This document shows positions 2,841-23,538 of a stretch of 64,000 nt of DNA, one piece after another. The position numbers and the translations under genes were made by a program. This DNA is from Dehalococcoidia bacterium (GTDB lineage Bacteria; Chloroflexota; Dehalococcoidia; DSTF01; JACRBR01), in assembly GCA_021731085.1 (NCBI GenBank), contig JAKFYB010000011.1, forward strand, positions 1 through 64,000, read 5' to 3'. The notes below the pieces were generated by a model. That model saw only the letters and a list, made by a program, of their open reading frames with translations. It was not told the origin of the DNA and ran no database searches. Within the stretch, counting starts at the first letter, position 1. Every line of letters starts with the position of its first letter.

Positions 2841-3911
2841 TCAACGAATGCCGTGCCGAAATGCAAAGCTGGCGGCGTCCACCCGCGAATGAGCCCCGAT
2901 TTTTCCGTAAATGTTCGCGAGATGCCTTACGACCGTGCGTTCGCTGAGGGTGAGCGCCGCCGAGATCTCGCGGTTGCTACTCCCCCCAGCCAAGAGCGCT
3001 AGGACCTCTCGCTCACGAGCCGTAAGCGCGGAGAGCGACGCCGCATCATCGGGCTGAGTCTCAGCTTTGCCGCTGCGTCCTGCGTTTAGGAACTCCACGG
3101 TCGGATCAACCACCATCTCGTCGCCCTCACCGGCCGGCACGTTTACGTTGCCGATCAATGGTAGAAAGCGCGCGTTCGGAAGATCGGCAGCGAGGCGACG
3201 CCCGGCCTCGAATGGAACAATAGGATCGCCGCGCTTATGTACAACGAGGGTCTCGACCCTAATCTCAGGGAGCAGCGGACTCAGATCACGCGAGGTGGCG
3301 GCCGCGATGAAATCGGCCGCCACCTCGCCGCTTGAGGAGCGGTGAAAAAGCGAACCCAATCCCTCCACGCCGTCGTCACGCCCGTCAGGCTGATGGCGCG
3401 GGTGTTCGTCACGTGGTCCGCCCATCCCACCAATTGTCCAGGAGGTCAGCTCCCAGTTCTCGCGCGTTAGCTTGTCAAACGCCGAAAACGCCTCGGGCTT
3501 TGCCATCTCTGAGGCCTTTCGGAGCGTGGCGTACAGCACCATGCGGCGCGGCCGGTTCTGATGGCGGTGCGCGAACACCAGCGCCATCGGCCCCGCCATG
3601 CCCGTGGCAAACAAGTCGAAATCGCGCAACTTCGCCGCGTCCACAACGATCTCAAGATCAACAACCAGCTGATCGAGGGTCAGCGGACCCCGCAACTCGC
3701 GTGAGAGCCCGGTCCCACGCATGTCGTATCGGACGACCTGCCTACCTCGGCCAATTCGCTCGTGAAACGACTTGAGCCCCGGAACCATGTGCTCGAGAGC
3801 AAACGACGCCACAAACATTGGCGCGATCACCATTGGCTCGCCCTCGCCCTGAACCGAAAACGCGAGGCGGGTTCCATCCGTCGAGGTGGCGTACTGAATC
3901 TTTGGCTCCAC
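2841..3911 (-). CDS. alpha/beta-hydrolase-like sensor fused to LuxR-type HTH
   Basis: The N-terminal ~250 residues resemble an alpha/beta hydrolase (cap-preceding YDMRGTGLS, then DLFATGMAGPMALVFAH). The C-terminus is a GerE/LuxR helix-turn-helix (SALTAREREVLALLAGGSSNREISAALTLS as the core, ending about 60 residues later). Fusions of this type are transcription regulators in which the hydrolase fold probably senses a ligand. The usual nucleophile elbow G-x-S-x-G reads ATGMAG, so the catalytic Ser is missing and enzyme activity is unlikely. The chosen start is a GTG at 3911 (VEPKIQY); longer in-frame starts only add low-complexity residues. It is convergent with the propeller gene. Confidence 0.75.
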   Translation of the reverse strand: MEPKIQYATSTDGTRLAFSVQGEGEPMVIAPMFVASFALEHMVPGLKSFHERIGRGRQVVRYDMRGTGLSRELRGPLTLDQLVVDLEIVVDAAKLRDFDLFATGMAGPMALVFAHRHQNRPRRMVLYATLRKASEMAKPEAFSAFDKLTRENWELTSWTIGGMGGPRDEHPRHQPDGRDDGVEGLGSLFHRSSSGEVAADFIAAATSRDLSPLLPEIRVETLVVHKRGDPIVPFEAGRRLAADLPNARFLPLIGNVNVPAGEGDEMVVDPTVEFLNAGRSGKAETQPDDAASLSALTAREREVLALLAGGSSNREISAALTLSERTVVRHLANIYGKIGAHSRVDAASFAFRHGIR

Positions 3912-4123: not shown

Positions 4124-6769
4124 ATGTTCAAGGCATTCTCAAAGCAGGCAATGCGTCGTCAGCAGGACACGACGGCCACGCGGCTGGCCCTTGCCGGCGC
4201 CGTGGTACTGGTCGCCCTGTTCCTGGCGCCTACGCCGTGGATCGCGAAGCCCGCGCAGGCCGCGACCCTGACGGTGAATTCCACTGGCGACGCCGCAGAT
4301 GCTGCGCCAGGCAATGGAGTGTGCGCTACGGCCGGAGGCGTCTGCACGCTGCGGGCGGCGATCCAGGAAGCCAACGCAGGGGCAGGCGCCGATACCATCG
4401 ACTTCAACATCCCGGGCGGAGGGACGGTCCCTTTGGTTCCCATCGCGACGGCTCTTCCCGCAATCACCGCGCCGGTGACGATCGACGGTAACAACGCAGG
4501 CGCTCACGATTGGGTCCGCATTGATGGGACAGGCATCGCTGCGAATACGGACGGCCTTCGCGTGCTCGTCGGCCTAACGATCATCGACCGCATGGTTATC
4601 ACCAACTTCACCGATGACGGCATCGACGTGAGCAGCGGCCGCACGATCATCACTGGCAACCTGATCGGTATCGACGGCGCAGATGTGGACAGAGGCAACA
4701 CCGGCGACGGCATCGAGATCGATTCCGACGGCAATATCGTTGGCGGGTCAATAATCGCGGACCGTAACGTGATTTCCGGGAACAGTGGCCGCGGCATCTG
4801 GCTCAACGGGAACAACAACGGCGTCAGCGGCAACTACATCGGGACGAACATCGCAGGCTCCGCAGCGATCCGAAACGACATGGGTGGTCTAGAGGTCGTC
4901 GGCGACTCGAGCTCGATTGGTGGGTTGACCTCCGGCCAACGGAACGTTATCTCCGGAAATGGATCTTTCGGCCTTCTTGTTGGCAGCACTGCGAACTTCA
5001 CAGCTGTTCACGGCAACTACATTGGCACCGATGCGTCGGGCAGCACCGATGTGGGCAATGCCAACGCCGGTGTGTCCGTAAGCGGTAGCGACACGCTGAT
5101 TGGGGGAAGCACGCCCACACATCGAAACGTCATTTCTGGCCATGGTCTCGTCGGCGTTCTGACGAACGGCGTGCGCACGACCGTGGAAGGTAATTTCATC
5201 GGCGTAAACGCCGCCGGCGCGACGGCGCTAGGCAATACGCTGGGGATCGCGGCAAATGGCGTCAATACACTCATTGACGGCAATGTTGTCTCAGGAAACG
5301 TGGATGGAATCTACCTGGTGCCAGGCGCCACGAATCCAGTCGTCGTCGGGAATATCATCGGTGTCGACGTGACAGGTTCGAGCGCCATCCCGAACCAGAG
5401 CGGCATCACTGTCGGATCTACGTCGGGGACGATCGGCGGCGCAGCCGGCACGACGAACTACATCACGGGCAACACAGGCGATGGGATCTGGTTCCTAGCT
5501 GCGGCCAAGAACGTCACCGTCGCGAGCAACTTCATCGGGTACATGCCCGGGTCTTCAGCCACAAACGGGGGACATGGCATTCGAGTCAGCGCTGGCTCGC
5601 TCGCAAATATCGTCCTAGGCGGCGCCGGTAATGCAGACCGAAACCTGATAGAAAACAACGTGGGCGACGGCATCCACATCGAGAGCACAGCCACGGGCGT
5701 CGACATTCGGACGAATTTCATCGACGCCAATGGTGGTCTGGGAATCGACCTTGCGCCTGACGGGCCGACCTTGAATGACCCGACCGAGTTCGACACCGGC
5801 GCAAACGACCTGCAGAACTGGCCCGTGATCAAGTCCGCCGTCCAGAGCGGACCGTCCCTGACGATCAATTCCCACATCCGCACGGAGCACTTGACGAACT
5901 ACATGCTTCGGTACTACGCCACGGTCTGCGATGCCAGTGGATATGGCGAGGGCGGAACACAGATCGGCTCCGTCATGGTGAGCACATCGCTGGAGGGGAA
6001 CGCCGCGGACACCTCGACGTTCACGTACACACTGCCGGCGGGCTACACGGTAACCGGCACGGCGACGAACATCTCCACCGGATCGGCATCGGAATTCAGC
6101 GCCTGCTACTCACCGACCAGCGACGTCGACGGCGATGGCGTGTTCGATGTGAACGATAACTGCCCTGCTGTTCCGAACAACCGGCAGGACAACACAGACC
6201 GCAACTTCATCGATCACTCCCCGCCCTTCTTATCGACTGTTGACGACAAGACGCGCGCGTACTCGGACGCCCTCGGTGATTCGTGCGATAGCGATGACGA
6301 CAACGACAACAGGTACGATTGGAGCGAGGCTAGCTGTGGAAGCGGCAGTGATCCATTGCGGGCTGACACCGACGCTGACCGGTTCCTCGACGGGGCGGAG
6401 TGCGCGCTCGGTACTGACCCGACGTTGTTCGCGAGCAAGCCGCTTGTGACGGCATGCGGGGCGACGACGGATGTGGATGGCGACAAGATTACCGAGCGCG
6501 TGGAGGTCTGTTTCTACGGAACCGACCCCAACAATAGCGACACCGACGGCGATAAGGCGCTGGATGGGGCAAAGGATGGGTGTGAGGCGGCGTCCTTTAA
6601 CAGCGACCGGATCGTGAACGTCGCTGATATGGGCATGCTGGCGACGGCGATCGGGAACGTGGCGTTCCGGGTTGTGAGCGTGGATGTGAACAAGGACGGC
6701 GTCTGGAATCCTGCCGACCAGGGCCTAGTCGCGAGTTTCATATCTCCATCAGGGCAGTGCCCTGGGTAA
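4124..6769 (+). CDS. secreted parallel beta-helix (CSLREA-type) protein with dockerin-like C-terminus
   Basis: The 881-residue protein starts at an ATG with GAGGGG upstream; an in-frame start 24 codons earlier lacks a ribosome site. A signal peptide ends near AKPAQA. Next comes a CSLREA-like segment (CTLRAAIQEANAGAGADTI), then many beta-helix turns with NVISGN, GNYIGTN and GNFIGV repeats (residues about 130-590) of the pectate-lyase/NosD type. The C-terminus holds TSP3-like Ca2+ loops and the same dockerin-like module as the gene at 758, again ending GQCPG. It probably works at the cell surface or outside the cell; no catalytic residues can be assigned. A palindrome overlaps the stop codon. 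Confidence 0.8.
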   Translation: MFKAFSKQAMRRQQDTTATRLALAGAVVLVALFLAPTPWIAKPAQAATLTVNSTGDAADAAPGNGVCATAGGVCTLRAAIQEANAGAGADTIDFNIPGGGTVPLVPIATALPAITAPVTIDGNNAGAHDWVRIDGTGIAANTDGLRVLVGLTIIDRMVITNFTDDGIDVSSGRTIITGNLIGIDGADVDRGNTGDGIEIDSDGNIVGGSIIADRNVISGNSGRGIWLNGNNNGVSGNYIGTNIAGSAAIRNDMGGLEVVGDSSSIGGLTSGQRNVISGNGSFGLLVGSTANFTAVHGNYIGTDASGSTDVGNANAGVSVSGSDTLIGGSTPTHRNVISGHGLVGVLTNGVRTTVEGNFIGVNAAGATALGNTLGIAANGVNTLIDGNVVSGNVDGIYLVPGATNPVVVGNIIGVDVTGSSAIPNQSGITVGSTSGTIGGAAGTTNYITGNTGDGIWFLAAAKNVTVASNFIGYMPGSSATNGGHGIRVSAGSLANIVLGGAGNADRNLIENNVGDGIHIESTATGVDIRTNFIDANGGLGIDLAPDGPTLNDPTEFDTGANDLQNWPVIKSAVQSGPSLTINSHIRTEHLTNYMLRYYATVCDASGYGEGGTQIGSVMVSTSLEGNAADTSTFTYTLPAGYTVTGTATNISTGSASEFSACYSPTSDVDGDGVFDVNDNCPAVPNNRQDNTDRNFIDHSPPFLSTVDDKTRAYSDALGDSCDSDDDNDNRYDWSEASCGSGSDPLRADTDADRFLDGAECALGTDPTLFASKPLVTACGATTDVDGDKITERVEVCFYGTDPNNSDTDGDKALDGAKDGCEAASFNSDRIVNVADMGMLATAIGNVAFRVVSVDVNKDGVWNPADQGLVASFISPSGQCPG

Positions 6770-6788: not shown

Positions 6789-6951
6789 GCGTTTCGCGGC
6801 GGGTTTCGGTGGCCTGTACGCAACCGCGCGGCCGCATGCGGCAGCGAACGGCGACAGGGGTGGGCCGCGGCCACAGTCGCTGTGCCGGAGCGGATTGGAC
6901 ACGGAGGAACCAACTATGGCAGCGGCCGACGCCTGTTTCCGAATTCGCGCC

Positions 6952-8289
6952 TCAGTTCTGTGAAGGAACCCTGCCCGTGAACTGCGCCCCACCGCTGGCG
7001 CCGTTCGCTGCCGTCAGCGTGCCTCCGTGCGCCACGAGGATTCGATGCGCAATCGTTAGGCCGAGTCCAGCGCCACCGGTCTCGCGGCTACGTGAGGGGT
7101 CACCGCGGTATAGAGGCTCGAACAGGTGCGGAAGATCGTCTGCCGCGATCCCTGGACCACTGTCGGCCACGCTGAACCACGCATCATCGTCATCTTCACC
7201 GCAACGAACATCGATCGTCCCGCCGTCCGGGGTGTAGCGCAGCGCATTGTCCAGCAGGTTTTCGACGGCGCGCGTCAGGAGGTACCGGTCAGCCAGCACC
7301 GTGCAGGGACGGACCGTCGAGTTGAATCGGAGCGGGATGTGCTTCGTCTCCGCCTCCGGCTGGCGGTCGCGAACGATCTGCTGCAGGAACACGGACAGAT
7401 CGAGCGAATGCCGCTCCGGCGGCTGGTGCAGATAGGCGAGGCGCGTGTAGTCGAACAGGTCACTCACCAGGCGTTCCAGCTCGTCCGACTTCGCGCTCGC
7501 GACGGCGAGGTATCGTGACTGCTGCTCGGGCGTCTCCGCGATCCCGTCGCGCAGGCCTTCGAGGTAGCCGCGCAACGAAAAAAGCGGTGTGCGCAGGTCG
7601 TGTGCGATCGCCGTGATAAACAGCCGGCGCTCCTCTTCCAATGCCGCCTGCTGTTCCAGGGAGTGATGCAACTCAGCCGCCATCGTCTCGAAGGCGACAT
7701 TGACCTGGTCCAGCTCGGTCACCCGAGAGCGAGGGAGCGTGACCGCCAGGTCGCCCTCCGCAACCTGCTGGGCCGCTCGATGCGCTGCCTGCAGCGGGCG
7801 CACCGTCATCCGACCGAACACCCAGGCGATGGCGATCGTCACTATCACAAACATGACGCCGACCATCAGCAGGAATTCTGGCACCGGCGGGTCCTTGTCG
7901 AGCGGCAGATACACCAGCGCCGTGAAGACCGAATCCGAATCCGTGAACTCCTCCGTGTGCAGGACCCACTGAGTGCGGGTCCCCGCCCCCGGAATCACCC
8001 CCGGTGCGGTGCGATGCACTTCCCGTCCATCAACGAGCAGCACGACGCCACCCTCACCCTCGTCACGGAGCGTGCTACGCACGCTCTCCTGCCACGCCGG
8101 ATCTTCCCAGCGATCAACGTTCTCCCGCAGTTGAGTGGCCACCCGCTCGGCCCTGTCCTCGGCGTCGCCCTCCTCCGAGAACGCAACGATGGCTCCGATG
8201 GGCGCAGCGACGCCAAAGAAGACGATCGCGGCCCCGATCACAAACCAGGTTCGGATTGGCAGCACCCATCGTTTCGCGACTGCGCTCAT
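6952..8289 (-). CDS. sensor histidine kinase (two TM, HAMP, HisKA, HATPase)
   Basis: The 445-residue protein has TM helices near residues 12-37 and 139-159 around an extracytoplasmic sensor domain of ~100 residues. HAMP (160-213) is followed by HisKA with the phosphorylated His at about residue 230 (AIAHDLRTPL). The ATP-binding motifs are N box NLLDNALRYTP, G1 DSGPGI, F box LFEPLYRG and G2 GGAGLGLTI. It autophosphorylates and passes phosphate to the response regulator, whose gene overlaps its start by four bases. The ABC exporter at 9158 is divergent from this pair and is a likely target. Confidence 0.92.
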   Translation of the reverse strand: MSAVAKRWVLPIRTWFVIGAAIVFFGVAAPIGAIVAFSEEGDAEDRAERVATQLRENVDRWEDPAWQESVRSTLRDEGEGGVVLLVDGREVHRTAPGVIPGAGTRTQWVLHTEEFTDSDSVFTALVYLPLDKDPPVPEFLLMVGVMFVIVTIAIAWVFGRMTVRPLQAAHRAAQQVAEGDLAVTLPRSRVTELDQVNVAFETMAAELHHSLEQQAALEEERRLFITAIAHDLRTPLFSLRGYLEGLRDGIAETPEQQSRYLAVASAKSDELERLVSDLFDYTRLAYLHQPPERHSLDLSVFLQQIVRDRQPEAETKHIPLRFNSTVRPCTVLADRYLLTRAVENLLDNALRYTPDGGTIDVRCGEDDDDAWFSVADSGPGIAADDLPHLFEPLYRGDPSRSRETGGAGLGLTIAHRILVAHGGTLTAANGASGGAQFTGRVPSQN

Positions 8290-8981
8290 CGGCGTCGTTC
8301 GCCTTCGAACCGATAGCCAACGCCCCGCACCGTGACGATGTGGACAGGATTCGAGGGGTCTTCCTCGATCTTCTCCCGGAGCCGGCTGATGTGAACGGTG
8401 AGCGTGTGGCGGTCTCCGACCTCACCCCAGAACTGTGCGAAGAGCTGGTCGCGGGTGAAGATCTGGCGCGGATGGCTGGCGAGGTACTCCAGCAGCTCGA
8501 ACTCGCGTGCCGTCAGAGCGACCGGCGCGCCGTCCACGCGCACCTCGTGTGCCCGCACATCGATGATGACACGGCCGTAGTCGAGCAGCGCATCCACCGA
8601 GTGCTCAACGGTCCGACTGCGGCGCAGTACCGCGCGCACGCGCAGCACCACCTCGGCGGGTGTCGCGGACTTCACGATGTAATCATCAGCACCCAGGCTT
8701 AGCCCGCGAAGCTTATCGCCGTCCTCTTGTAGCGCACTGAGCAGAAGCACCGGGGTATCCCCCTGCGCTCGCACCTGGCGCAGGACATCGAAGCCGGACA
8801 GACCCGGCATCATGATGTCCAGCACGACGCAATCGACCTGGCGCGCATCAAGCGTTGCCAGCGCCGCACGCCCGTCACCGGCAAGCACCACCTCGTACCC
8901 CTCCGCCTGGAGGAAGTCGCGCATCAGCGCTGCGATATCAGCGTCATCGTCCACAACGAGCACCACAGGGCGTCGCTCCAT
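8286..8981 (-). CDS. OmpR/PhoB-family response regulator
   Basis: The 231-residue protein has a receiver domain with acidic residues DDD at 11-13, phospho-acceptor Asp55 (VVLDIMMPG) and a conserved Lys (YIVKSATP). The C-terminal winged helix of the Trans_Reg_C type has the REFELLEYL and VGYRFEGE signatures. The kinase gene follows with an ATGA overlap, so the two are translated together. The candidate operator at 9078-9119 lies between this gene and the ABC exporter. Confidence 0.92.
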   Translation of the reverse strand: MERRPVVLVVDDDADIAALMRDFLQAEGYEVVLAGDGRAALATLDARQVDCVVLDIMMPGLSGFDVLRQVRAQGDTPVLLLSALQEDGDKLRGLSLGADDYIVKSATPAEVVLRVRAVLRRSRTVEHSVDALLDYGRVIIDVRAHEVRVDGAPVALTAREFELLEYLASHPRQIFTRDQLFAQFWGEVGDRHTLTVHISRLREKIEEDPSNPVHIVTVRGVGYRFEGERRR

Positions 8982-11340: not shown

Positions 11341-12039
11341 TCAAGTTTGCGCCGTGCTGACCGGACTGGACACTAGCGGATCGCGCCAATTGATATGCAA
11401 CTCGGACTCTTCATCTGGGAGCAACGTACGGTTACTGCTTGCTTGCGCCCATTGGCGCAGAAACGGATGTGTGTTCCAGAGCTCGGGATAGAACTGGCGA
11501 AACACGAATCGGACAAAATGGCCGAGACTAAGCGGCCCAGCACTCGCGACTCGACATGACCCGGCGACGACCGTTAAGTGGCTCGCCGCATGTCCGGGAG
11601 CCGCTGCAGCTGGATCGAAGTCGAAACGAACGGGACTCCGCAACCGAATGTCTCCGATGGAGGGTGGCCCAAAGTCTTCAAGAAGGTCGAGGAGGGGGAT
11701 CTCTAGAAGCAATTCTGGATCGAAATCGAAAGGACAGGGGATGTAGACGAGCCGGTGTCCGACAAGGTCTTCGCGTTGGAAGTCAAAACTGACTTGCAGC
11801 AGGGCGCCATCCCTCAGGACGACAGAGAATTGTCTGTTGCGGAGCCAAGTTGTGTACTCGGCGAGCGATGGACTGTCGTTTTGCCACAGCGCCAGAGCGC
11901 CGGTGGTTCCAACCCACGAAACACGTAGTCGAGCGCCTGCCCCTGTCACTCCTACGGGATTGGAGTCGAGGACGATTCCCGCGCTGGATAGCGCATCAAT
12001 CAGATTGCGTATGTCCGTCGCGCAGCTACTCGAGGTCAT
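11341..12039 (-). CDS. DUF2290 domain protein, partner of upstream helicase
   Basis: The 232-residue protein matches the DUF2290 pattern from memory: a C-terminal half with LLEDFGPPSIGDIRLRSPVR, then ASHLTVVAGSCRVASAGPLS and FVRFVFRQFYPE. It is soluble with no signal peptide. Its biochemical role is unknown. Its ATG lies 14 bases inside the helicase gene, so the two are coupled. I recall helicase-DUF2290 pairs being listed as candidate anti-phage systems. Base composition is less GC-rich than the core genome genes, in line with transfer. Confidence 0.7.
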   Translation of the reverse strand: MTSSSCATDIRNLIDALSSAGIVLDSNPVGVTGAGARLRVSWVGTTGALALWQNDSPSLAEYTTWLRNRQFSVVLRDGALLQVSFDFQREDLVGHRLVYIPCPFDFDPELLLEIPLLDLLEDFGPPSIGDIRLRSPVRFDFDPAAAAPGHAASHLTVVAGSCRVASAGPLSLGHFVRFVFRQFYPELWNTHPFLRQWAQASSNRTLLPDEESELHINWRDPLVSSPVSTAQT

Positions 12040-14257
12040 GCGCTTCTGCAGAATCGCGCTCTAGGAGTCTCGCGATGCTTGTGCGTAGATCTGCTGGCAG
12101 CGAGTTGAAATCCAAATCACCAGCCTGCGCTGAGCGCAAGAGGTCACGCAGGTTTTGCTCCAACTGACGAAGCCGGGCGATTTCGTCATCTGTGCGGTCC
12201 CGATGCACCATGCGCATACGCTGCAGCTCCTCGGTTGTCGGAATCTGGAGTTCGAGTGCGAAGTTTCGTTCACGCGCCGCCGTGATTTCGTCCTGAAGCA
12301 GTTGCATCCCAGATCCCCATCCCGTTATCCGTATCCAAGCTCGGGATCGAGTAATGGCCGTAAATAGCGTGTTTCTGAGCCTAAGGAGCTCGTGGCCAGA
12401 TTGACACTCTTGGGCGTTCAATACGTAGACCATCGGTGCCTCGTTACCCTTGGACCTGTAGATATTTGCTACCGCGATCGAGTCGCTAGAAAAGAGCTCG
12501 TCAACGCTGGATGTTACGCCCGCTAGGTGCGACTCGATTTTGCGGGCCTGCAGCGCGTCCGCCAAGATGCGAGATGACGATTTTGAAGTGTAAGCGTCAG
12601 GAAGGATCACGAGAACGTCATCAGTTTCAAGTTCGTCCTCGGTGATGTTAGTCGCGATCTGCTCCGCGACCCACTCGGCCTGTTCTCTCTCGCTCTCGAA
12701 CGTGCGGGCTACGATGGCGTCGTCTTGACTTAACAAGTCTGTGAAATACTCGGGGTACGAGGTCGGAGCGCGGGTGAGCGTTACTCGCGACCCTTCCGTA
12801 AGTGTGCCATCGACAACTTGGTAACCAATGGATTCCCACTGATGTGGATCGTCGAAGTGCTGAACAGGGCCCTCGGCACGGTAGATACCAAACCCAAGTG
12901 CGTGCGCCAGTGCGAGTGCCCACGGCGTATTTCGGTAACAGATTGGCAAGGTGATATCTTGCCGAGGCATGCCAGGATTGCTTCGCAATTCCACCCGAGG
13001 ATTGCCGCCTTCGTCGGTTCCGAAGAGATCTCGGGTCGAGGGCATAGTTGCTTCTGAAAGCTTCTGCAACTCGTCGTACGCAAATACAACTCTCTTCGGC
13101 GGGCGAGCGAACTTATGCGCGAGTTGGAAGAAGGGCTCAGGCAAGTCCTGCCCTTCGTCAATTAGGATGGCGTCAAACATAGTTGGCATGTCAGCTACCT
13201 GGTCCGCGAGGTCAAGTAACTCCTTACAAACGCCTCGGAATTCGTCTCCGCGCCGGAACTTCGCGCGTGCGTAGCCGAAATCCCGTACTGGAGCCGCCAA
13301 CGCACGAGCCATCTCGGAATACAGTCCGGGTTTGCCCGTCCCGCCCCACGCATGCAGAACCCTCAGTCGTTGCCAATTCGGTTCATCTGCGGCGTGTTCG
13401 AACGTAAATCGACGAATCAGATCGATGAACTGCTGGTAAAGAGAACGCGTGTAGAAGACGACGGCAATGTCCCAGTCGGGATGCTGAGTGTGCAGATATG
13501 CCGCCTTTAGTGCGAGCACAACTGTTTTGCCCGAACCAGCGAGACCTCTGATGCGTTGCGGACCTTCGGGCATTTCGATCGCGGCGGCGTTTTGCCACCG
13601 ATCCAAGTTTGCGATTTCTCGCTCGATCTTCTTGATCACTGCGCCGCGCGAACTTGCTCTAGTAACGCCCTCGCGCCGCTTCGCCGGCTTGATGGTCGAA
13701 ACGCGCTGGATGACTGCGTTAAGCGGGGCCCACAGTTCCTCACTCAACGGTGGCAGCTGCGCGATTGCGTGCGCCAAATCCTGCACACCGGCGAACCTTC
13801 CGCTTGCCACCGATGGAACGGGTGTCGTGATGGAATTGGCGAATACAGTTACTACTTCGGGTTGGACTGCGAGGTCTCGTCCTCTTCGCAGGCTGTCGTT
13901 TCGCTCAAGATTTGCTTTGAGAACAAAGAAGAGCCGATCCTGTTGATCTTGCAGGGATGCCCAGCGGCTCACATCGCCGTCCGGCGGGGTGCTGGGCTCG
14001 ACTGTAAATGCGACTAGGCCGTGTTCGCGTGTGAGCAAGAGCGCATCAACATCGACTTGGCTGTCAGCAGATGCGATTACTGGATAACCCAGGAACAGCG
14101 TTCCGTCGAGGCGAAGGCCCTCCACGGACGAGATGAGCTGTTGTGCAATCTCGACCGGGTACTTCGTTTGGCCGCGAACAACCTCTATCATTCCCGTTCC
14201 CCAATCCGCACATGCGTGTCCAATCGGCAAGATATCCCCCAATGCCCTTGAGCGCAT
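12026..14257 (-). CDS. UvrD/Rep-like SF1 helicase with N-terminal nuclease-like region
   Basis: The 743-residue protein has a Q-motif Gln (LDRWQNAAA), Walker A GLAGSGKT at about 238-245, Walker B ILIDEGQDLP at about 367-371, motif III VVFAYDELQKLS and motif VI LFTAITRSRAW. This marks it as a DNA-translocating SF1A ATPase. The first ~200 residues include VDVDALLLTREHGLVAFTVE, which resembles a NERD/PD-(D/E)xK core, but the Lys is not evident. An ATG at 14257 with GAGGAG upstream was preferred over a GTG at 14296. The region is visibly less GC-rich than flanking genes. With the overlapping DUF2290 gene it forms a candidate defence module. Confidence 0.8.
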   Translation of the reverse strand: MRSRALGDILPIGHACADWGTGMIEVVRGQTKYPVEIAQQLISSVEGLRLDGTLFLGYPVIASADSQVDVDALLLTREHGLVAFTVEPSTPPDGDVSRWASLQDQQDRLFFVLKANLERNDSLRRGRDLAVQPEVVTVFANSITTPVPSVASGRFAGVQDLAHAIAQLPPLSEELWAPLNAVIQRVSTIKPAKRREGVTRASSRGAVIKKIEREIANLDRWQNAAAIEMPEGPQRIRGLAGSGKTVVLALKAAYLHTQHPDWDIAVVFYTRSLYQQFIDLIRRFTFEHAADEPNWQRLRVLHAWGGTGKPGLYSEMARALAAPVRDFGYARAKFRRGDEFRGVCKELLDLADQVADMPTMFDAILIDEGQDLPEPFFQLAHKFARPPKRVVFAYDELQKLSEATMPSTRDLFGTDEGGNPRVELRSNPGMPRQDITLPICYRNTPWALALAHALGFGIYRAEGPVQHFDDPHQWESIGYQVVDGTLTEGSRVTLTRAPTSYPEYFTDLLSQDDAIVARTFESEREQAEWVAEQIATNITEDELETDDVLVILPDAYTSKSSSRILADALQARKIESHLAGVTSSVDELFSSDSIAVANIYRSKGNEAPMVYVLNAQECQSGHELLRLRNTLFTAITRSRAWIRITGWGSGMQLLQDEITAARERNFALELQIPTTEELQRMRMVHRDRTDDEIARLRQLEQNLRDLLRSAQAGDLDFNSLPADLRTSIARLLERDSAEAHDLE

Positions 14258-14401
14258 TAGCTGCTCCTCAAATCCTTCCCCCAGGGCCTTAGGCACGTTT
14301 CGCCGCGCCAGCCCAAGGCTTTCGGGGAATGGAATGGTGCCGCACGGGAATGGTGCGTAGGCTCATGTTTGAGTGCATAGAAAAGTGAGTGTTCGAAAGC
14401 A

Positions 14402-16222: not shown

Positions 16223-16642
16223 CTACTGCGCGGTGTGCGTCAGCGCGTGTTCCGTCGCCGCTTTCATCGTCGGGAACACCTGGCCGCAGGCGCCGCAGCC
16301 GAACGAATCGCCGCTCTCCGTCTTCGCGGCCTTCTTCTTCGGCGCGCTCTTCTTTGTCGCCTTCTTGGGGGGTGCCTTCTTCCTTGTCGGCTTCTTCGTC
16401 GCTTTGGGCTTCGGTTCGCGCGCGGGCTTGAGGTCGCCATCCAGGCTCCAGAAGCGCCACCCGTTCGCCGCGATCCCGCCCATCACCGCCTTCGCGGCGG
16501 AACTCGGGCTCTTGTAGTCCGTCCCCGCGACCCGGTAGCGCAGGCCGTCCTCCGTCTCCATCACGACGCAGGTGTGGTCCTCCTTCTTGTACCGCGCGAC
16601 GAGCACGGTCCCCGGCGCTAGTTCTCTGTTCTCGAGTGGCAT
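16223..16642 (-). CDS. RAMA-domain protein with histone-H1-like tail and C2H2-like zinc finger
   Basis: The 139-residue protein starts at ATG 16642, seven bases after AAGGAG. Residues about 8-70 match the RAMA fold from memory (LAPGTVLVARYKK, then SPSSAAKAVMGG and NGWRFWSLDG). RAMA modules are predicted to read modified DNA and are usually fused to methylases or restriction enzymes. Residues about 75-110 are Lys/Ala/Pro-rich repeats (KKATKKSAPKKKAAK) like the histone H1 tail. The end carries CGACGQVF followed by HALTHT, a single C2H2-like finger. A small free-standing reader with a DNA-coating tail is unusual. The ParB-methyltransferase in the same island could supply the modification. Confidence 0.65.
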   Translation of the reverse strand: MPLENRELAPGTVLVARYKKEDHTCVVMETEDGLRYRVAGTDYKSPSSAAKAVMGGIAANGWRFWSLDGDLKPAREPKPKATKKPTRKKAPPKKATKKSAPKKKAAKTESGDSFGCGACGQVFPTMKAATEHALTHTAQ

Positions 16643-16693
16643 GTGGCATCTCCTTGTGAAAGCCCCGGCCAGGGGCGTCTTCGTTGGCGATGC

Positions 16694-16848
16694 CATACAT
16701 CACTCTGCAGCCGATCGAAGTCAACGGGATGTGGCGAGAATCTGCGCACCGTCCGGAGAGATTGTTGTGGCGCGTCAACCGTCCGCAGAGATTGTCTGTC
16801 TTTGCCCGAAATACTCGTTGACTTACAGCCCGCGCAGAGTGATGTATG
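16694..16848. promoter_or_regulatory. 155-bp interrupted palindrome with two 18-bp direct repeats
   Basis: CATACATCACTCTGC (16694-16708) is the perfect inverse of GCAGAGTGATGTATG (16834-16848). Inside, AAGTCAACG (16718-16726) pairs with CGTTGACTT (16816-16824). Both pairs share the centre 16771. Around that centre are two direct repeats, ACCGTCC(G/C)GAGAGATTGT-like, at 16748-16765 and 16778-16795, 30 bp apart. The block fills the space between the divergent RAMA (-) and 16869 (+) genes. It may be a two-way operator, an origin with iterons, or a small inverted-repeat element. Confidence 0.6.
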
Positions 16849-16868
16849 TGGTGAAAGGAGAAGCAACC

Positions 16869-17261
16869 ATGACCAGCCAATACGCATTTGTCGGCACCTA
16901 CGAGGCGCGGTCCTTCCCGAAGGGATGGGCGCACCCGAAGCGCAACGGACGCTACGTCCCGCTCCTCCCCTACGGCTACGCCGGTGACGAGACCGACGAC
17001 TTTGTCGCCACGCCGGAGACGACGATGCCGCCATCGAGGCTGCAGGGCGAGAACGAGATCGCCGCTTACGAGGCCGTCAGCGAAGGCACGCCGATTTCGC
17101 CCGCATTCCCCGACACGCCCCAGGGGCGGCTCGACCTCTGCAACTGGTGCGCAGCCAACGAAGACATTCTCGGGAAGCGGAAGGTCGATGCCGAAGCCTG
17201 GGCGGCGATCCTCTTCGGCGATGCCGCGATCACGGGCGACGGCAGCGTCATCGCGCAGTAG
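16869..17261 (+). CDS. unknown island protein, 130 residues
   Basis: The start is ATG 16869 after a strong AAAGGAG; longer frames upstream run through the palindrome and are rejected. The protein is soluble and acidic (begins MTSQYAFVGTYEARSFPK). It has a single CNWC near residue 100. I do not recognise a family. It is the only clear + strand gene in this part of the island and is divergent from the RAMA gene, so the symmetric region at 16694-16848 probably controls both. Confidence 0.6.
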   Translation: MTSQYAFVGTYEARSFPKGWAHPKRNGRYVPLLPYGYAGDETDDFVATPETTMPPSRLQGENEIAAYEAVSEGTPISPAFPDTPQGRLDLCNWCAANEDILGKRKVDAEAWAAILFGDAAITGDGSVIAQ

Positions 17262-17589: not shown

Positions 17590-18822
17590 CTACTTCTTCT
17601 CAAGGCACACAGCCTCCTTGCCGCTGAACGACTCCCAGCGAGCTAACACGACGCTCCCATAGTGCGCATCCAATTCCATCCCGTAGCAGACGCGCCCGGT
17701 GCGCTCGGCGGCGATCAGCGTTGAGCCTGATCCGAGAAACAGATCGAGCACGACGTCGCCGGCCTTGGACGAGTTCTCGATCGCGCGTTCGACCAATGGC
17801 AGCGGCTTCATCGTCGGATGAGCCTCGCTGTCGCCCGGCCGATCGATCTCCCACACGTCCGACTGGTTGCGATCGCCGCACCAGTGGTGCTTCTGTCCCT
17901 CACGCCAGCCGAACCAGATCGGCTCGTACTGCCTTTGGTAGTCGGCCCGTCCCATGACGAAGCGATCCTTCCGCCAGATGATCGTGTCCGACCAGTGCCC
18001 GTCGGCCTCGGCCAACGCCCGTGAGACTGACGCCCACTCCTTCGTGCTCATGCAGATGTAGATCGCGCCGTCGACGTTGCTGACGATGTTGTTGGACCAG
18101 GCACGGATGAATGCGTCCCATTGTTCCGCGGGCATCGCGTCGTTCTGGATGCGCCGCTTGCGCTGGTTCTTCTGCTGCCCGCCGTGGTCTCCGAGGGCGA
18201 CGTTGTAGGGCGGGTCGGTGAAGCAGAGCGCCGGGCGGACATCGCCGAGCAGGCGCGACACGGCCGCACTGTCGGTCGCGTCCCCGATCAGGACGCGGTG
18301 GTCGCCGAGCGCCCACAACGCGCCACGTTTGGCCCGTGTGGCGGCACGTGCGGCCTCCAGCGCCGCCTCGACGTCGAACGCCTCCGCCTGCTCACGCTTC
18401 TCGCGCACATCCAGTGACTTCAGCAGCTTGTCGAGTTCGCCAGCCTCAAAGCCCGACAGCGTGAGGTCGATCCCGTCCACGCCCTGGAGGTCGGCCAGCA
18501 TGTGCGCCAGGAGATCCTCGTCCCACTCGCCACCGATCCTGTTCAGGGCCATGTTCAGCAGTCGGGACTGTTCGACCGAGATGTCGAGCCAGATCACGGG
18601 TACGGTCTTCATGCCGAGCTTCCGCGCAGCAAGCAGGCGTTGGTGGCCGCCGACGACGGTCTTGTCTTCCCTCCTCGCCAAGACAGGCTGGATGAAGCCA
18701 AACTCCTGGATGCTCTTGGTCAGCGCTTCGAGCTCGCGCGGTGAGATGCGCCGCGGGTTGGCGGGGTCGGGCTTGAGGTGGTCGATCGTGACGTGCTCGA
18801 TCTCGACTGCGGTGGTCATCAT
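17590..18822 (-). CDS. ParB-like nuclease domain fused to N4/N6 DNA methyltransferase
   Basis: The 410-residue protein has an N-terminal ParB/sulfiredoxin-like domain (residues about 8-95, with GGHQRLLAARKLG). The C-terminal adenine/cytosine-N methyltransferase is of the beta group: DPPY at 203-206 comes before the SAM-binding LDLFLGSGSTLIAAE. Such fusions are common in phages and mobile elements and modify element DNA. The start at 18822 follows GGAGG; an ATG at 18843 overlaps the upstream terminase stop and is the alternative. It lies directly downstream of the small terminases and near the RAMA protein, a possible reader of its mark. Confidence 0.85.
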   Translation of the reverse strand: MMTTAVEIEHVTIDHLKPDPANPRRISPRELEALTKSIQEFGFIQPVLARREDKTVVGGHQRLLAARKLGMKTVPVIWLDISVEQSRLLNMALNRIGGEWDEDLLAHMLADLQGVDGIDLTLSGFEAGELDKLLKSLDVREKREQAEAFDVEAALEAARAATRAKRGALWALGDHRVLIGDATDSAAVSRLLGDVRPALCFTDPPYNVALGDHGGQQKNQRKRRIQNDAMPAEQWDAFIRAWSNNIVSNVDGAIYICMSTKEWASVSRALAEADGHWSDTIIWRKDRFVMGRADYQRQYEPIWFGWREGQKHHWCGDRNQSDVWEIDRPGDSEAHPTMKPLPLVERAIENSSKAGDVVLDLFLGSGSTLIAAERTGRVCYGMELDAHYGSVVLARWESFSGKEAVCLEKK

Positions 18823-18839
18823 CTTTGCCTCCACGTTGT

Positions 18840-19304
18840 TCATGACGCGCCTCGGTCGAAGCGCGCGAACGGATCGTCGATGGGCTGCGTTGCTTGTGCC
18901 TGGACGCGCGTGCGTGAGGCCGGCGACATGCCGAACTCCGCCAACAGCAAGCGCACCTGCTCTCCGGCTTTGTTGGCGATCCCGACGTAGGGGCTCTGGA
19001 CGGGGTAGCCGTTCGGGCTCTTGAGAACGACGCCGTATTCCTGCAGCGCCGCGATCGCCTCCAGCCACCTGCCGTAGGCGTCGCAGTAGAGCGCGAGCGC
19101 CGCGCGGTCGACCGTCGTCAGCAGGCCCATCGCGGTGAGATGCTTCGAGATGCGCCGCCACTCCTTCCGGGCTGCCGAAGAGAGTTCAGGCGGACACGTC
19201 GGCCTTCCGTCGCCCACCGGCTCGCGCGGATTCATACGGTCGGCGCGCAGCGTGCCGCGCAAGGCCTTGATGCTTGTAGGTACGGGCTTCGCTCCCCGCT
19301 TCAT
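18840..19304 (-). CDS. phage terminase small subunit, P27 family (copy 1)
   Basis: The 154-residue protein fits the P27 family: MKRGAKPVPTSIKALRGT start, CPPELSSAARKEWRR, LLTTVDRAALALYCDAYGRW, and LLAEFGMSPASRTRV at the end. P27 small terminases recognise the packaging site and load DNA on the large terminase. No large terminase follows; the next gene is the ParB-methyltransferase. A ~42-nt motif lies 57 bases upstream of the start, as at the second copy. Confidence 0.85.
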   Translation of the reverse strand: MKRGAKPVPTSIKALRGTLRADRMNPREPVGDGRPTCPPELSSAARKEWRRISKHLTAMGLLTTVDRAALALYCDAYGRWLEAIAALQEYGVVLKSPNGYPVQSPYVGIANKAGEQVRLLLAEFGMSPASRTRVQAQATQPIDDPFARFDRGAS

Positions 19305-19360
19305 CGCTGACCCCCCTCTACCCTAATCTGGCAACGCACACACGCCGGAACGCCAGCGCT

Positions 19361-19402
19361 TTCCTATTCCCGTAATCGCTGAAAATCAGACCGCCCTCCC
19401 CC
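19361..19402 (-). repeat. pre-terminase motif A (candidate packaging/cos-like site)
   Basis: Aligned with 19949-19992, this segment is about 80% identical over ~42 nt of non-coding DNA (shared TTCC-A-TC-CG-AATCGC, CAGACC and a C-rich end, with one or two single-base gaps). It lies three bases past the stop of terminase copy 2 and 57 bases before the start of copy 1. Cos sites of P27-type phages lie upstream of the small terminase, hence the proposal. Confidence 0.5.
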
Positions 19403-19405
19403 ATC

Positions 19406-19882
19406 TCAACCCTCCACCATCTTTCGGTAGCGTTCCATGACGCGGATGCCGCGCTCTTCGTCTTCCGGATCAGCAGGCCGTTCGTGGGCGATGCCCGATC
19501 GCAGCCGGGCGATCGGCGTCAGTCCAAGTTGTCGTGAGAGTTCGGTGACGGTCTGCTCGGCGTCGCGCTTCATCAGCCACAGCGGGTTGCGCACGAGGTT
19601 GCCCTTCTGTCCGCGGATCAACTTCCCGGACTTGCCGAGCATCGACTCCAACTCACACCAGTCAGCCCAGGCCACGCAGTACCGGACGAGCACAGCACGG
19701 TCGATCTTGGCGAGGACGCCGGCCTCTTCGAGTTCTGGCACAACACGCTGCCACTCGGCGCGGGCCTCGCCGGTCAGGACCTTCGGCAGCGCCGGGCGCG
19801 CGACGGTGACGGCCTTGCCGCTCGTGCGACGCTTGTTGCGCCTGCGCGCGTAAGGCAGAGGCAGTGGTCCGCGCTCACCCAT
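19406..19882 (-). CDS. phage terminase small subunit, P27 family (copy 2)
   Basis: The 158-residue protein has the same layout as copy 1 but is clearly diverged: LPKVLTGEARAEWQRVVPEL, LAKIDRAVLVRYCVAWADW, and LSRQLGLTPIARLRSG. A basic N-terminus (YARRRNKRRTSGK) is added. ATG 19882 is the start; the longer frame upstream is not coding. Two small terminases in a row without a large subunit is unusual and suggests duplication or capture of a packaging-specificity gene. Confidence 0.82.
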   Translation of the reverse strand: MGERGPLPLPYARRRNKRRTSGKAVTVARPALPKVLTGEARAEWQRVVPELEEAGVLAKIDRAVLVRYCVAWADWCELESMLGKSGKLIRGQKGNLVRNPLWLMKRDAEQTVTELSRQLGLTPIARLRSGIAHERPADPEDEERGIRVMERYRKMVEG

Positions 19883-19948
19883 CACTCGTCTCCGTGCGGA
19901 TACGTTGCCGAGAAACCCGTACGCAGTCGGAGAAGGGGGTGTGAGCGG

Positions 19949-19992
19949 TTCCCACTCTCGGAATCGCCCAAAAACCAGACCGGCCCCACCCC
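19949..19992 (-). repeat. pre-terminase motif B (candidate packaging/cos-like site)
   Basis: Second copy of the motif at 19361-19402. It lies 66 bases upstream of terminase copy 2, about the same distance as motif A from copy 1. The conserved parts include AATCGC, CAGACC and a run of C on the + strand. Confidence 0.5.
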
Positions 19993-20088
19993 TTGGTTGA
20001 CACGCGGCGTTGCCGTCGCTGCCTCGGTTGCTAGGATCGAACGAGCTCTCGCGTCCAGCCCCCAAGCAGATGCGGGGAGCCCGTTCAG

Positions 20089-20118
20089 GGTCGGCGCCCC
20101 GCGGTTGAGGCGCCGACC
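20089..20118. promoter_or_regulatory. 10-bp-stem hairpin upstream of the two-TM gene
   Basis: GGTCGGCGCC and GGCGCCGACC flank a 10-nt loop, a very stable stem. It ends 16 bases before the ATG of the membrane microprotein and would also lie in the upstream region of terminase copy 2. It could be a terminator or a leader structure. Confidence 0.45.
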
Positions 20119-20134
20119 TTCCCTTGGTGTGCGG

Positions 20135-20311
20135 ATGATCCACGTAGCAATCGGCTTCTTCATCGTTTCCCTAACCTTCGCCGCGCTGTGCGTGGTGTCG
20201 TTCGTTGTGCCAGGGGCACCGAGCGTCGACCTGATGTTTGTCATGGGAACCGTCGTTGATGTGGTCGTCGCCACGGCACTCGTTGTGGTGGTTTGGCTCT
20301 TTGGCCTGTAG
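20135..20311 (+). CDS. 58-residue two-TM membrane microprotein
   Basis: ATG 20135 to TAG 20311. Two hydrophobic helices (VAIGFFIVSLTFAALCVVSF and a Val-rich VVDVVVATALVVVVWLF) are joined by a short polar turn. Size and layout resemble small holins or toxin-like membrane peptides, but no lysin gene is nearby. The ribosome site is weak. Palindrome copy 4 begins on the base after its stop codon, the same arrangement as at 2735. It is convergent with the primase. Confidence 0.5.
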   Translation: MIHVAIGFFIVSLTFAALCVVSFVVPGAPSVDLMFVMGTVVDVVVATALVVVVWLFGL

Positions 20312-20336: not shown

Positions 20337-23012
20337 TCATTCCTGGCCCTCCATCACCCGTTGGAGAGCGTTGCGGCGGCACTCGTCGCAGAGGTTACTG
20401 CTGCCGTCGCTCAGGGTCCTGCGGCACCGCTTGCATCGCCGGCCGTCAGCAGGCGGGGTGTAGGGGTGTAGGGTGGTGTAGGGTTTTTCAGGGTTTTTTC
20501 GCGTAAGCTCATTTTCTCTAGAGCTAACCCCGTTTTCCGGATCGTCAGCTTCGCGACCATACACCCGGTCGCCAGACCCTACACCCGAAGCCGCCTCCGC
20601 GAGGTCGAGTTGCGGTTCGGCGACCGCGGACAGCAGCCCAACGCCGAGGTAGCGGTTGCCGCGCTTCGTCCGTCGACGGTCGAACTTCATGTTCATGCGG
20701 CTTCCGAACACGGTGTTCGTCAGCGTCTCGCGCGAGGCCAGCCGTTGTACCTCAGACCAGTCGCGATACACGCGGTAGAGGTCATTCGCCCCGACCGAGA
20801 ATTCCGTGCCGACAACGCAACACTCGTCTAAGAACTGGGCGAGGGGATCGGAGTCGACGCGGTAGCTCTCCGTTGCGTCGCGAACCACGCCCGGCGTCAC
20901 GAGTCCATCCCGCTGCCACATCAGGGCTCCTCGCACGGCCCACACGAGGATGCCTGGCAGTTCGTCGTGGAGCTTTGACTGCAGCGTCTTGTCATCGGCG
21001 GTGCCGCGAAACTGACGAAGGAACGGGATCAGCCGCACACGCCGCCAGAAGCCCACTGAGTCATCGCCTACGACAGGCTTGTGATTGACCGCGAGCCAGT
21101 ACTTGGCCACGGGGACGAACGTGAAGAACTCAGCGTGCAGGAAGCGTGCGGTGATCGGGTCACATCCCGTCAGCGCCTTGATGCGCGCTTCGTTAAGCCG
21201 CGTGCCCTCGTTGGTCTCGGACGACGTGACGAGGCGCTTGCCGGCAAGGGCCGCCAGATCATTCGGGATGGATGATTGGTGCTGGCGCTCGAAGCTGGAG
21301 AACGGTGCGTTGAACGAGTAAGCGCCTGCCAGCTTCTGAAGGACGGCGAGGAACACGCTCTTACCGTTAGCGCCCGTGCCGTGGCAAAGGAACATGCACT
21401 GTTCGCGCGTATCGCCGGAGAGGCTGTAGCCCACCGCGTGTTGGATGAAGCGGATCATCTCGGCGTCGCCGCCGAAGACCTCCTCCAGAAACTGCTCCCA
21501 GCGTGGCGCCGAAGCGTTCTCGTCATATGTGATGTCTGAGCACAGTGTGATGCGGTCCGCATGGCGACCGTCTCGAAGGTTCCCGGTTCGGAGGTCGACA
21601 ACGCCGTTCGCAACTCCGAGAAGCCAGCCGTCGCTGTCCCAGCGGTCGCCTGCGTCGTTCAACGGAGGCTGCGCTCGGCCGATCTTGAGCATTGCGTCGA
21701 TGCGGGCACCGTTCTCGCTCGCGATGGCGAACTTCGCCTCCGCTTTTCGCTCCTCGAAGTCGGCTTGTCGGACCGACGAAAGCCCTCGATGCCGCGCAGC
21801 GAGAATCGCCAGCCTCACAACTTCTGCATCGGCATCGCCAATCCAGCGATGGCCGCTCCACACAAGCCATCTCTGACGACGGTGATTGAAGCGGAGTCGG
21901 TCCCCGTACTGGCGAGCGAAAAGTTCCGCATTGCCGGCGTCTGTGCGGGGGAACTCGTGCTCCGCTCCAGGCGACACGATGGCGGGATCGTGCCCACGTC
22001 CAACGCTGAGACGGAGAGCACGTTTAAAGTCCTGCCAGCCCTTTCCTGCTCCGCGGTTGTGAAAGCAGTGGCCCGCGTATGGGCCATCAGGCAGCGTTTG
22101 CCCCACCCCGCACTCGAACGGTCCACCGCCATCATGCAGCGGGCACTGTGGAAGGTGGTACCAGGTCACCCCGTTCGCGTCTGGCGGTTGCTCGCGATAC
22201 TCGAGGCCGTGCTCCACAAGAATGTCGACAAGAGCCGCGCTGCCGGAGGTGGCTCTGATCGTGGGAGCCTGCTTGGGCGGTTCCGCCAGTGCTTCGAGCT
22301 GGTCGCGCGAAACTAGGTCGAGAGCGCGAGGCACGTCGGTCAACGCGGAACGACGGTGTGGTCGATCCGGGAGGGCGTCGCCTTTGACCTTGAGGGTTCC
22401 GGCCAGGCCGATGATGCGCGCTGCGTTGTGCACGCTGGTGTCGACGTGGACTTCGTCCGAGTTGAACTTCGCGGCCAGTGCCTCCAGCACCGCCTTCACC
22501 AGTGCCAACGAATCGGCGTCGTTGGGGAGGTCGATGCGAAAGAGCAGGTAGGCTCCGTTGCCCGACATAACGCACAAGGGCGCGGGCCAGCCAAGCGCGG
22601 CCAAGTGGGCGGCGATCGCGTCCCTATGGTCCTCGGCCGCGAGAAGCTCCACGTCTGTACTGCTGATGCCGCTCGGTCGATTCGCGTCGATGTCGACGAA
22701 CAGCCAACGTCGACGAAGGATGTCCGTGTCGGCGGTAGTGTTCTCGGCGCGATCGACGATCCTATTCGCCGCGCGCGCGAGCAGGGCAGAGGAGGCGGGG
22801 TTGAGCGTGACGAAGATATTGGCGCGGCCGTCCAACTTAGCTACAGCGGCAACAGCAGCATCGACATTGTTGAAGTATCCTGAGGCCGTCGACTTGTACT
22901 GGCCGTACTTCGGCACGCGGATCTCGAACACGTCGCCGCTCTCATGCAGCACTGAGAGGAAACGCCGCACGTCGTGCGGCTCGAAGGCAGGCGCGGCCAG
23001 ATGGTGGCTCAC
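20337..23012 (-). CDS. PrimPol/D5-type primase-helicase (phage/plasmid P4 family)
   Basis: The 891-residue protein starts at a GTG. The N-terminus is an AEP/PrimPol-like primase: WLFVDIDA metal residues near 107-109 and HVDTSVHNAARIIGLAGT near 189-206. A Cys/His-rich segment (CPLHDGG, then HCFHN) follows at 290-319. The C-terminal half is D5N plus SF3 helicase with Walker A GTGANGKS at 545-552. The end has a four-Cys zinc ribbon (CKRCRR, then CDEC). It would start replication of the element by making primers and unwinding DNA. Its 5' end lies about 45 bp from the junction with comM, so it is the first gene from that end. Confidence 0.88.
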   Translation of the reverse strand: MSHHLAAPAFEPHDVRRFLSVLHESGDVFEIRVPKYGQYKSTASGYFNNVDAAVAAVAKLDGRANIFVTLNPASSALLARAANRIVDRAENTTADTDILRRRWLFVDIDANRPSGISSTDVELLAAEDHRDAIAAHLAALGWPAPLCVMSGNGAYLLFRIDLPNDADSLALVKAVLEALAAKFNSDEVHVDTSVHNAARIIGLAGTLKVKGDALPDRPHRRSALTDVPRALDLVSRDQLEALAEPPKQAPTIRATSGSAALVDILVEHGLEYREQPPDANGVTWYHLPQCPLHDGGGPFECGVGQTLPDGPYAGHCFHNRGAGKGWQDFKRALRLSVGRGHDPAIVSPGAEHEFPRTDAGNAELFARQYGDRLRFNHRRQRWLVWSGHRWIGDADAEVVRLAILAARHRGLSSVRQADFEERKAEAKFAIASENGARIDAMLKIGRAQPPLNDAGDRWDSDGWLLGVANGVVDLRTGNLRDGRHADRITLCSDITYDENASAPRWEQFLEEVFGGDAEMIRFIQHAVGYSLSGDTREQCMFLCHGTGANGKSVFLAVLQKLAGAYSFNAPFSSFERQHQSSIPNDLAALAGKRLVTSSETNEGTRLNEARIKALTGCDPITARFLHAEFFTFVPVAKYWLAVNHKPVVGDDSVGFWRRVRLIPFLRQFRGTADDKTLQSKLHDELPGILVWAVRGALMWQRDGLVTPGVVRDATESYRVDSDPLAQFLDECCVVGTEFSVGANDLYRVYRDWSEVQRLASRETLTNTVFGSRMNMKFDRRRTKRGNRYLGVGLLSAVAEPQLDLAEAASGVGSGDRVYGREADDPENGVSSRENELTRKNPEKPYTTLHPYTPPADGRRCKRCRRTLSDGSSNLCDECRRNALQRVMEGQE

Positions 23013-23054
23013 ATCACCACCACCCTTCTCAATGGCTTGTTGTAGTTCTGACCT

Positions 23055-23070
23055 ACACGGATGCCCGTGT
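23055..23070. other. island/comM junction with short dyad (candidate attachment site)
   Basis: comM homology begins at 23062. The dyad ACACGG-ATGC-CCGTGT straddles this point. Bases to the left belong to the island; bases to the right encode the conserved CPCGY of ComM. The 11-mer ACGGATGCCCG (23057-23067) recurs at 23586-23596, past the end of the comM remnant. Confidence 0.5.
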
Positions 23071-23538
23071 GGCTACTCCGGGGATTCGACGCGCGAGTGC
23101 TCGTGCTCAGGCTCGACAATCACGCGGTATCAGAAGCGCATCTCAGGGCCGCTGCTCGACCGCATCGACATCTTCGTCGAGGTGCCGCGTGTGGAGTATG
23201 AGAAGCTCGCCGGGGAGGGCGGCGGTGAGACATCGGAGATCGTGCGGGAGCGGGTGGAGGACGCGCGTCGTCGCCAGTTGGCACGGCTGCAAGGCACAGG
23301 TCTGATGTCGAACGCGGAGATGTCGGCGACGGAGGTGCGGCTCCACTGCCAGGCGCAGATGGACGAGCAGGCGCAGTCGCTGCTCCGGCTGGCGATGGCG
23401 CAGTTGTCGCTGTCGGCGCGGGCGTTCCACCGCATCCTGAAGCTCGCTCGCACCATCGCCGACATGGAGCCGTCCGACATCATCCACTCGCACCACCTGG
23501 CGGAAGCCGTACAGTACCGGCAACGCGTGTCCGGCTAG
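23062..23538 (+). pseudogene. comM: comM (YifB, Mg-chelatase-like) 3' fragment
   Basis: The frame reads CPCGYSGDSTRECSC, then ITRYQKRISGPLLDRIDI and RAFHRILKLARTIADME, ending EAVQYRQRVSG. This is the C-terminal ~160 residues of the ~500-residue ComM/YifB helicase used in natural transformation. The N-terminal two thirds, including Walker A and B, are absent from the window. Upstream the frame runs into antisense of the primase gene and makes no sense as ComM. The gene was therefore cut by insertion of the island; the missing part should lie left of the window or has been lost. Confidence 0.85.

Follow-up and report, generated by a model that had tools for sequence, protein, structure and literature searches.

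The 155-bp palindrome at 16694-16848 of the window (the whole stretch of 64,000 nucleotides analysed here) is probably made up of two back-to-back copies of a promoter specific to mobile elements, each driving one divergent gene of a prophage or satellite in a Dehalococcoidia chromosome. In this promoter the spacing is fixed: 11 unconstrained bases separate the upstream block, [C/G]TTGACTT or its variant [C/G]TTGCTAT, from the downstream block, AGAGTGATGWATG. The predicted transcription start lies about 6-8 nt past this two-block box. The factor that reads the box would be linked to the elements, because the downstream block is unlike a TATAAT -10 and because the box is nearly missing from chromosomes outside elements. 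In phages of Bacillota and Actinomycetota, the best candidate for this reader would be the sigma-70-region-4-like protein phrog_36 (DUF1492/RinA-like). We infer both the promoter identity of the box and its reader, from the motif and its geometry, its spread, its position relative to genes and its co-occurrence with a regulator.

The features around the palindrome are as follows.

16223..16642, minus strand: gene for a DUF2924/RAMA-like protein that ends in a cysteine/histidine motif at its C-terminal side (PF11149 over its cut-off at E 1.1e-8, RAMA under its own)
16662..16676, minus strand: DUF2924 leader hairpin, small and G+C-rich, with a 5-bp stem (terminator-like scan match, reported on the plus strand)
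16694..16725, minus strand: left promoter-like box, GTTGACTT-N11-AGAGTGATGTATG, towards the DUF2924 gene (exact pattern match; shuffles expect 0.00; homologous boxes upstream of DUF2924 genes elsewhere)
16748..16765, plus strand: first central 18-bp repeat, a possible auxiliary regulator site (pair at all four own-genome loci)
16778..16795, plus strand: second central 18-bp repeat (pair at all four own-genome loci)
16817..16848, plus strand: right promoter-like box, with the same sequence blocks, towards the gene at 16869 (exact pattern match)
16869..17261, plus strand: gene for a 130-aa protein behind the right box (ATG 16869, AAAGGAG upstream)
17590..19161, minus strand: ParB-N + N6/N4 methylase fusion (found in 20/35 element sequences; box neighbour in many phages)
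20337-23012: D5-type primase gene (profile matches)

Geometry of the palindrome

The outer inverted pair is 15 bp long (16694-16708 and 16834-16848) and complementary at 15/15 positions, and the inner pair is an exact 9 bp (16718-16726 and 16816-16824). Both are centred at 16771, and together they form a pair of 33-nt arms (16694-16726 and 16816-16848) that is 79% complementary. Between the arms lie the two 18-bp repeats, identical at 17/18 positions and 30 bp apart from start to start, which are placed symmetrically about the same centre and are direct rather than inverted with respect to each other. Exact inverted pairs of 15 bp with a total span of up to 200 bp number three in the window, compared with an average of 0.05 and at most 1 across 60 dinucleotide-shuffled versions. 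The nested pairs with a common centre, the repeats around it and a symmetry far above chance had all been reported in a preliminary description of this DNA, and all are confirmed here. The two other exact 15-bp pairs in the window are at 3290-3328 and 6839-7013.

The divergent genes named in that description are also real. They start at ATG 16642 (leftward) and ATG 16869 (rightward), leaving an intergenic gap of 226 bp, and each has a ribosome-binding site. For the DUF2924 gene the start is ATG 16642, with AAGGAG upstream, and not the longer open reading frame start at 16696.

The bipartite box

Read outwards, both arms have the sequence GTTGACTT, 11 free bases and AGAGTGATGTATG, and in the genome of the window they share a GC directly before the second block. 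The general consensus, in fixed geometry, is [C/G]TTGACTT-N11-AGAGTGATGWATG. Since the N11 bases are free, the palindrome is imperfect. The comparison supports reading the palindrome as one bipartite box present in two divergent copies, its symmetry as a unit being a by-product. The palindrome as a single functional unit was considered and is rejected, given the lone boxes in relatives and the unequal gaps within box pairs.

In a compilation of 54 non-redundant sites both blocks are conserved, the spacer between them is free and the flanks are nearly random; the downstream block has 13 conserved letters. The single box has no internal dyad. At positions 37-39, T is nearly missing (1, 0 and 1 of the 54 sites), as if transcription started there. 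The first block has a variant CTTGCTAT, also given as [C/G]TTGCTAT, and the second block has the variants AGAGTGATATATG and AGAGTGAGTAATG.

It is worth adding that this alternative first block (CTTGCTAT/GTTGCTAT) is joined to an unchanged AGAGTGATATAT block and is found several times per phage, for example at 5912 and 7238 of L292, at 5920 and 7001 of L294, and at 8697 and 9132 of L314. In some phages the two first-block versions are mixed.

Copies in the same genome and in relatives

The 15-bp arm, with at most one mismatch, is found in seven places in the 3.58-Mb genome to which the window belongs. Six of these pair up on contigs C15, C20 and C43, each time with exactly 140 bp from one arm start to the other, and the seventh belongs to a fourth locus, on C3, where the other arm diverges more. 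At 4/4 of these loci a DUF2924 homologue lies downstream of the box. A class-wide search allowing up to three mismatches gave matches in 96 of 393 genomes; many of these are chance matches, and the search was used only to pick loci, from which 20 stretches were fetched. A single box precedes the DUF2924 gene in G003 (two loci) and G011 (four loci), while G001, G004 and G026 have a divergent pair of boxes with a different gap. The gaps between paired boxes are about 91, 58, 50 and 46 bp.

The right-hand gene differs among the loci. Given this, and the single boxes in relatives, it follows that the DUF2924-side box is the constant one and that the second box comes with the second gene. In G213, a homologue of the 130-aa protein carries its own box. 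The preliminary description had made conservation of the arms beside the flanking genes a test of its proposal. The outcome is mixed. On the DUF2924 side conservation is found in the homologues whose upstream DNA was read, with the exceptions that the second half of the box is degraded in G011:C65 and that the C3 copy has one extra base; the second arm is present only where a divergent gene exists. A search of viral contigs with the DUF2924 protein found no relative.

The pair of central 18-mers is present at 4/4 own-genome loci. A similar site was recognised by eye once in G001 and once in G004, where its distance to the DUF2924-side box is shorter by about one helical turn. The 18-mers are probably a lineage-specific site for an auxiliary regulator. 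The stem of the leader hairpin is kept in C20 and C43, and the hairpin could be an attenuator.

Spread and rarity of the box

Stretches with the strict box number 11 among viral sequences and 21 among genome contigs. Of the 21, three are from Chloroflexota and most others from Lachnospiraceae or other Clostridia. A match in Apilactobacillus is followed by no start codon and is probably due to chance. In degenerate form the box is present in 72 viral-contig stretches, and the variant box is found in named phages of Streptococcus, Erysipelothrix, Terrisporobacter and Gardnerella, using a relaxed pattern that was written after the CTTGCTAT variant had been seen. Gardnerella, the host of one motif-positive phage, is an actinobacterium.

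With up to three mismatches, 32 whole viral records chosen for having the box gave 61 matches, against one for the reversed pattern. Among genomes chosen for having matches, 19 from Dehalococcoidia gave 37 and eight from Bacillota gave 9, against none for the reversed control in either set. On these counts the box is rare and does not serve as a general host promoter. A matrix scan of 786,518 bases gave 43 matches, compared with 2 in a crude shuffle, the scanned records including those from which the matrix was built. Multiple boxes per element occur, on several dispersed units, and the box letters are unchanged in viral records of 32-65% G+C. Searches of open-licence PMC papers turned up no description of the box.

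Position relative to genes

Placement was counted at 50 non-redundant sites, both viral and from genome contigs (three more were skipped because they lacked downstream sequence). A ribosome-binding site and start codon lie within 110 nt downstream at 44 of the 50, compared with 3/50 in the antisense direction and 245/1000 for random positions; the remaining six sites have no good downstream start codon. The downstream genes are unrelated to each other, and include serine recombinases, tyrosine recombinases, a Tn916-Xis-like protein, amidoligases, gamma-glutamyl cyclotransferase, glutamine-amidotransferase-like proteins and DUF2924 (the tyrosine recombinase and amidotransferase labels being assigned by eye). 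Amidoligase-like genes have the box in Chloroflexota (G051) and in Bacillota phages alike.

In several phages the order is ParB-methylase gene, box and then terminase genes, and in v398, v399 and v416 the box is upstream of the packaging and structural operon. In v410, v411, v412 and v418 the box-driven units are oriented away from the late genes, an arrangement at odds there with a plain late promoter.

Candidate readers of the box

In the phages phi1605, Javan630 and TPDSL_ph1, a phrog_36 'transcriptional regulator' is encoded one or two genes behind the helicase. This regulator also goes by the label DUF1492. The phrog_36 proteins have sigma-70-like and RinA-like similarity, below curated cut-offs. 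They were found in 27/32 motif-bearing viral records at E 0.01 and in 25/32 at E 1e-9 or better, and were absent from 5/32, some of which are fragments. The family also matches 14/14 control genomes, via region-4-like stretches in the Chloroflexota genomes inspected, and therefore only long, strong matches were counted.

Among named phages, the regulator (E 1e-10 or better) is present in 7/7 box-positive and 1/11 box-negative cases (Fisher p 2.5e-4), in a small test where three of the seven positives were profile seeds; with the three seeds removed, p is 0.0037. The test used 18 of 20 loci, L295 and L297 being dropped because the stretch ended short of the usual place of the regulator. The profile was also tuned, in that its first version missed the Evtepia and Blautia phages and was then widened with more seeds. 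Weaker relatives of the regulator occur in the box-negative phi-m46.1 (6e-7), Javan51 (6e-5) and an Anaerosphaera phage (0.003). No phrog_36-like protein was found in the Chloroflexota element stretches scanned, and the candidate reader therefore does not explain the window itself.

Other candidates were tried and rejected. The ParB-methylase fusion is not a universal reader, being present in 20/35 element sequences and missing from the 60-kb G051 region, and a protein with a helix-turn-helix and zinc ribbon was found in only 5/35. The Pfam region 4 model (PF08281) was not decisive: it matched 26/31 viral records at E 0.01, 11/31 over the cut-off, and 14/14 control genomes.

Alternative explanations

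Another possibility is that the host's sigma-A reads the boxes as ordinary promoters whose -10 is unusual; they would be strong or constitutively active in the lysogen and need no special factor. TTGACT does match 5/6 letters of the sigma-70 -35 and stands in its place, and the spacing is near canonical, at 17 bp to GAnnnA or 19 bp to TGWATG. We nevertheless regard this as unlikely, because the box has a 13-letter conserved downstream block where a TATAAT-like -10 would be expected, is restricted to elements and nearly absent from chromosomes outside them, and keeps the same letters in viral records over the whole range of G+C given above. A standard sigma-70 scan of 16500-17000 found 0 promoters. 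It is quite unlikely that a widespread repressor or anti-repressor of the elements uses the boxes as operators overlapping weak promoters, with the conserved letters bound by the repressor instead of RNA polymerase. Such a role would suit the long conserved downstream block and the multiple boxes per element, and the central repeats suggest additional regulation; against it are the lack of a dyad within the single box, a block geometry like that of -35 and -10 elements, and the failure of clustering of element proteins to give a common repressor. Of the functions proposed in the preliminary description, a site of transcription control is supported, with each arm a directional promoter-like box of a kind found upstream of many unrelated genes.

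The other two functions suggested there, a recombination site and a replication origin, are not supported by the comparison with relatives, which have single boxes and, where boxes are paired, gaps of differing length. The idea of a recombination site, such as an invertible promoter, could draw on the perfect 15-bp inverted arms flanking a core and on the recombinase genes near the box in some phages, but it is very improbable, the core being flipped in 0/4 own-genome copies. Scarcely credible is an iteron-type replication origin of the element, formed by the palindrome and the 18-bp repeats. Two direct repeats 30 bp apart within a palindrome, and a D5-type primase gene at 20337-23012, are what recommends it, but there are only two repeats, with one similar site each in G001 and G004 and none noted in other boxed elements, and the arms are accounted for by the promoter box. 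No plasmid-type Rep family was found among the neighbouring proteins scanned.

Comparison with known systems

The proposed element-specific promoters have points in common with several known systems. As with the RinA/ArpU/Ltr late promoters, the candidate reader in Bacillota and Actinomycetota phages is a phage-encoded regulator of about 130-150 aa, sigma-like or RinA-like, and the box is often near terminase genes. One such promoter, P23 of Staphylococcus phage Phi13, has a canonical sigma-A motif and four upstream direct repeats in the available text of PMC13123087. Compared with P23 as described in that text, the conserved signal here is the core promoter itself, no comparable direct repeats were seen in the Bacillota sites, and the box is on several dispersed units per element and also in Chloroflexota elements. 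The idea of an element-encoded sigma factor for element genes is shared with Tn916/Tn1549-like conjugative transposons, whose sigma factors are mentioned as uncharacterised in the available part of PMC7438776; that part differs in giving no target motif.

More tentatively, one promoter class with its own reader family might form a private transcription code of unrelated mobile elements in at least three phyla (Bacillota, Actinomycetota and Chloroflexota), which would let amidoligase, integrase and DUF2924 genes move between elements under the same control. If so, some 20 fixed letters in fixed geometry would serve as a simple DNA tag for prophages, satellites and accessory genes in raw sequence. 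The box also turns the RNA polymerase factor of mobile-element genes into a directly testable question, and gives phrog_36/DUF1492-type regulators a concrete candidate target.

The surrounding element

The surroundings of the palindrome appear prophage-like or satellite-like, judging from the ParB-methylase fusion, two terminase small subunits and the D5-type primase. The 130-aa protein had no match in PHROGs, Pfam, PADLOC or NCBIfam. A paralogous small element in the same genome (L008, on C20, 9581-21271) has an integrase, a primase, a terminase large subunit, a methylase and DUF2924. Features of PICI and other satellites, which are small and integrated, encode a primase, a terminase small subunit and an integrase, and lack capsid genes, are divided between the copies: the window has the primase and terminase small subunits, while C20 has the integrase, primase and terminase large subunit. 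No capsid genes were found in the stretches read of the window and the C20 element. The difference from these satellites is that no Stl-like master repressor was identified.

The two terminase small subunit genes are adjacent and of the same family (18840-20143, minus strand), with no adjoining terminase large subunit. The C-terminal part of an open reading frame at 22558-23538 (plus strand) matches Mg_chelatase_C (E 2e-28). ComM, of the Mg-chelatase family, is a known insertion site, and the element seems to be inserted inside a ComM-type gene. A DUF2290 protein is encoded beside a UvrD-like helicase at 11341-14296 (minus strand), the helicase matching the PADLOC model 'Helicase' at E 8e-224. 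As a pair, the two are candidates for an anti-phage defence encoded on the element.
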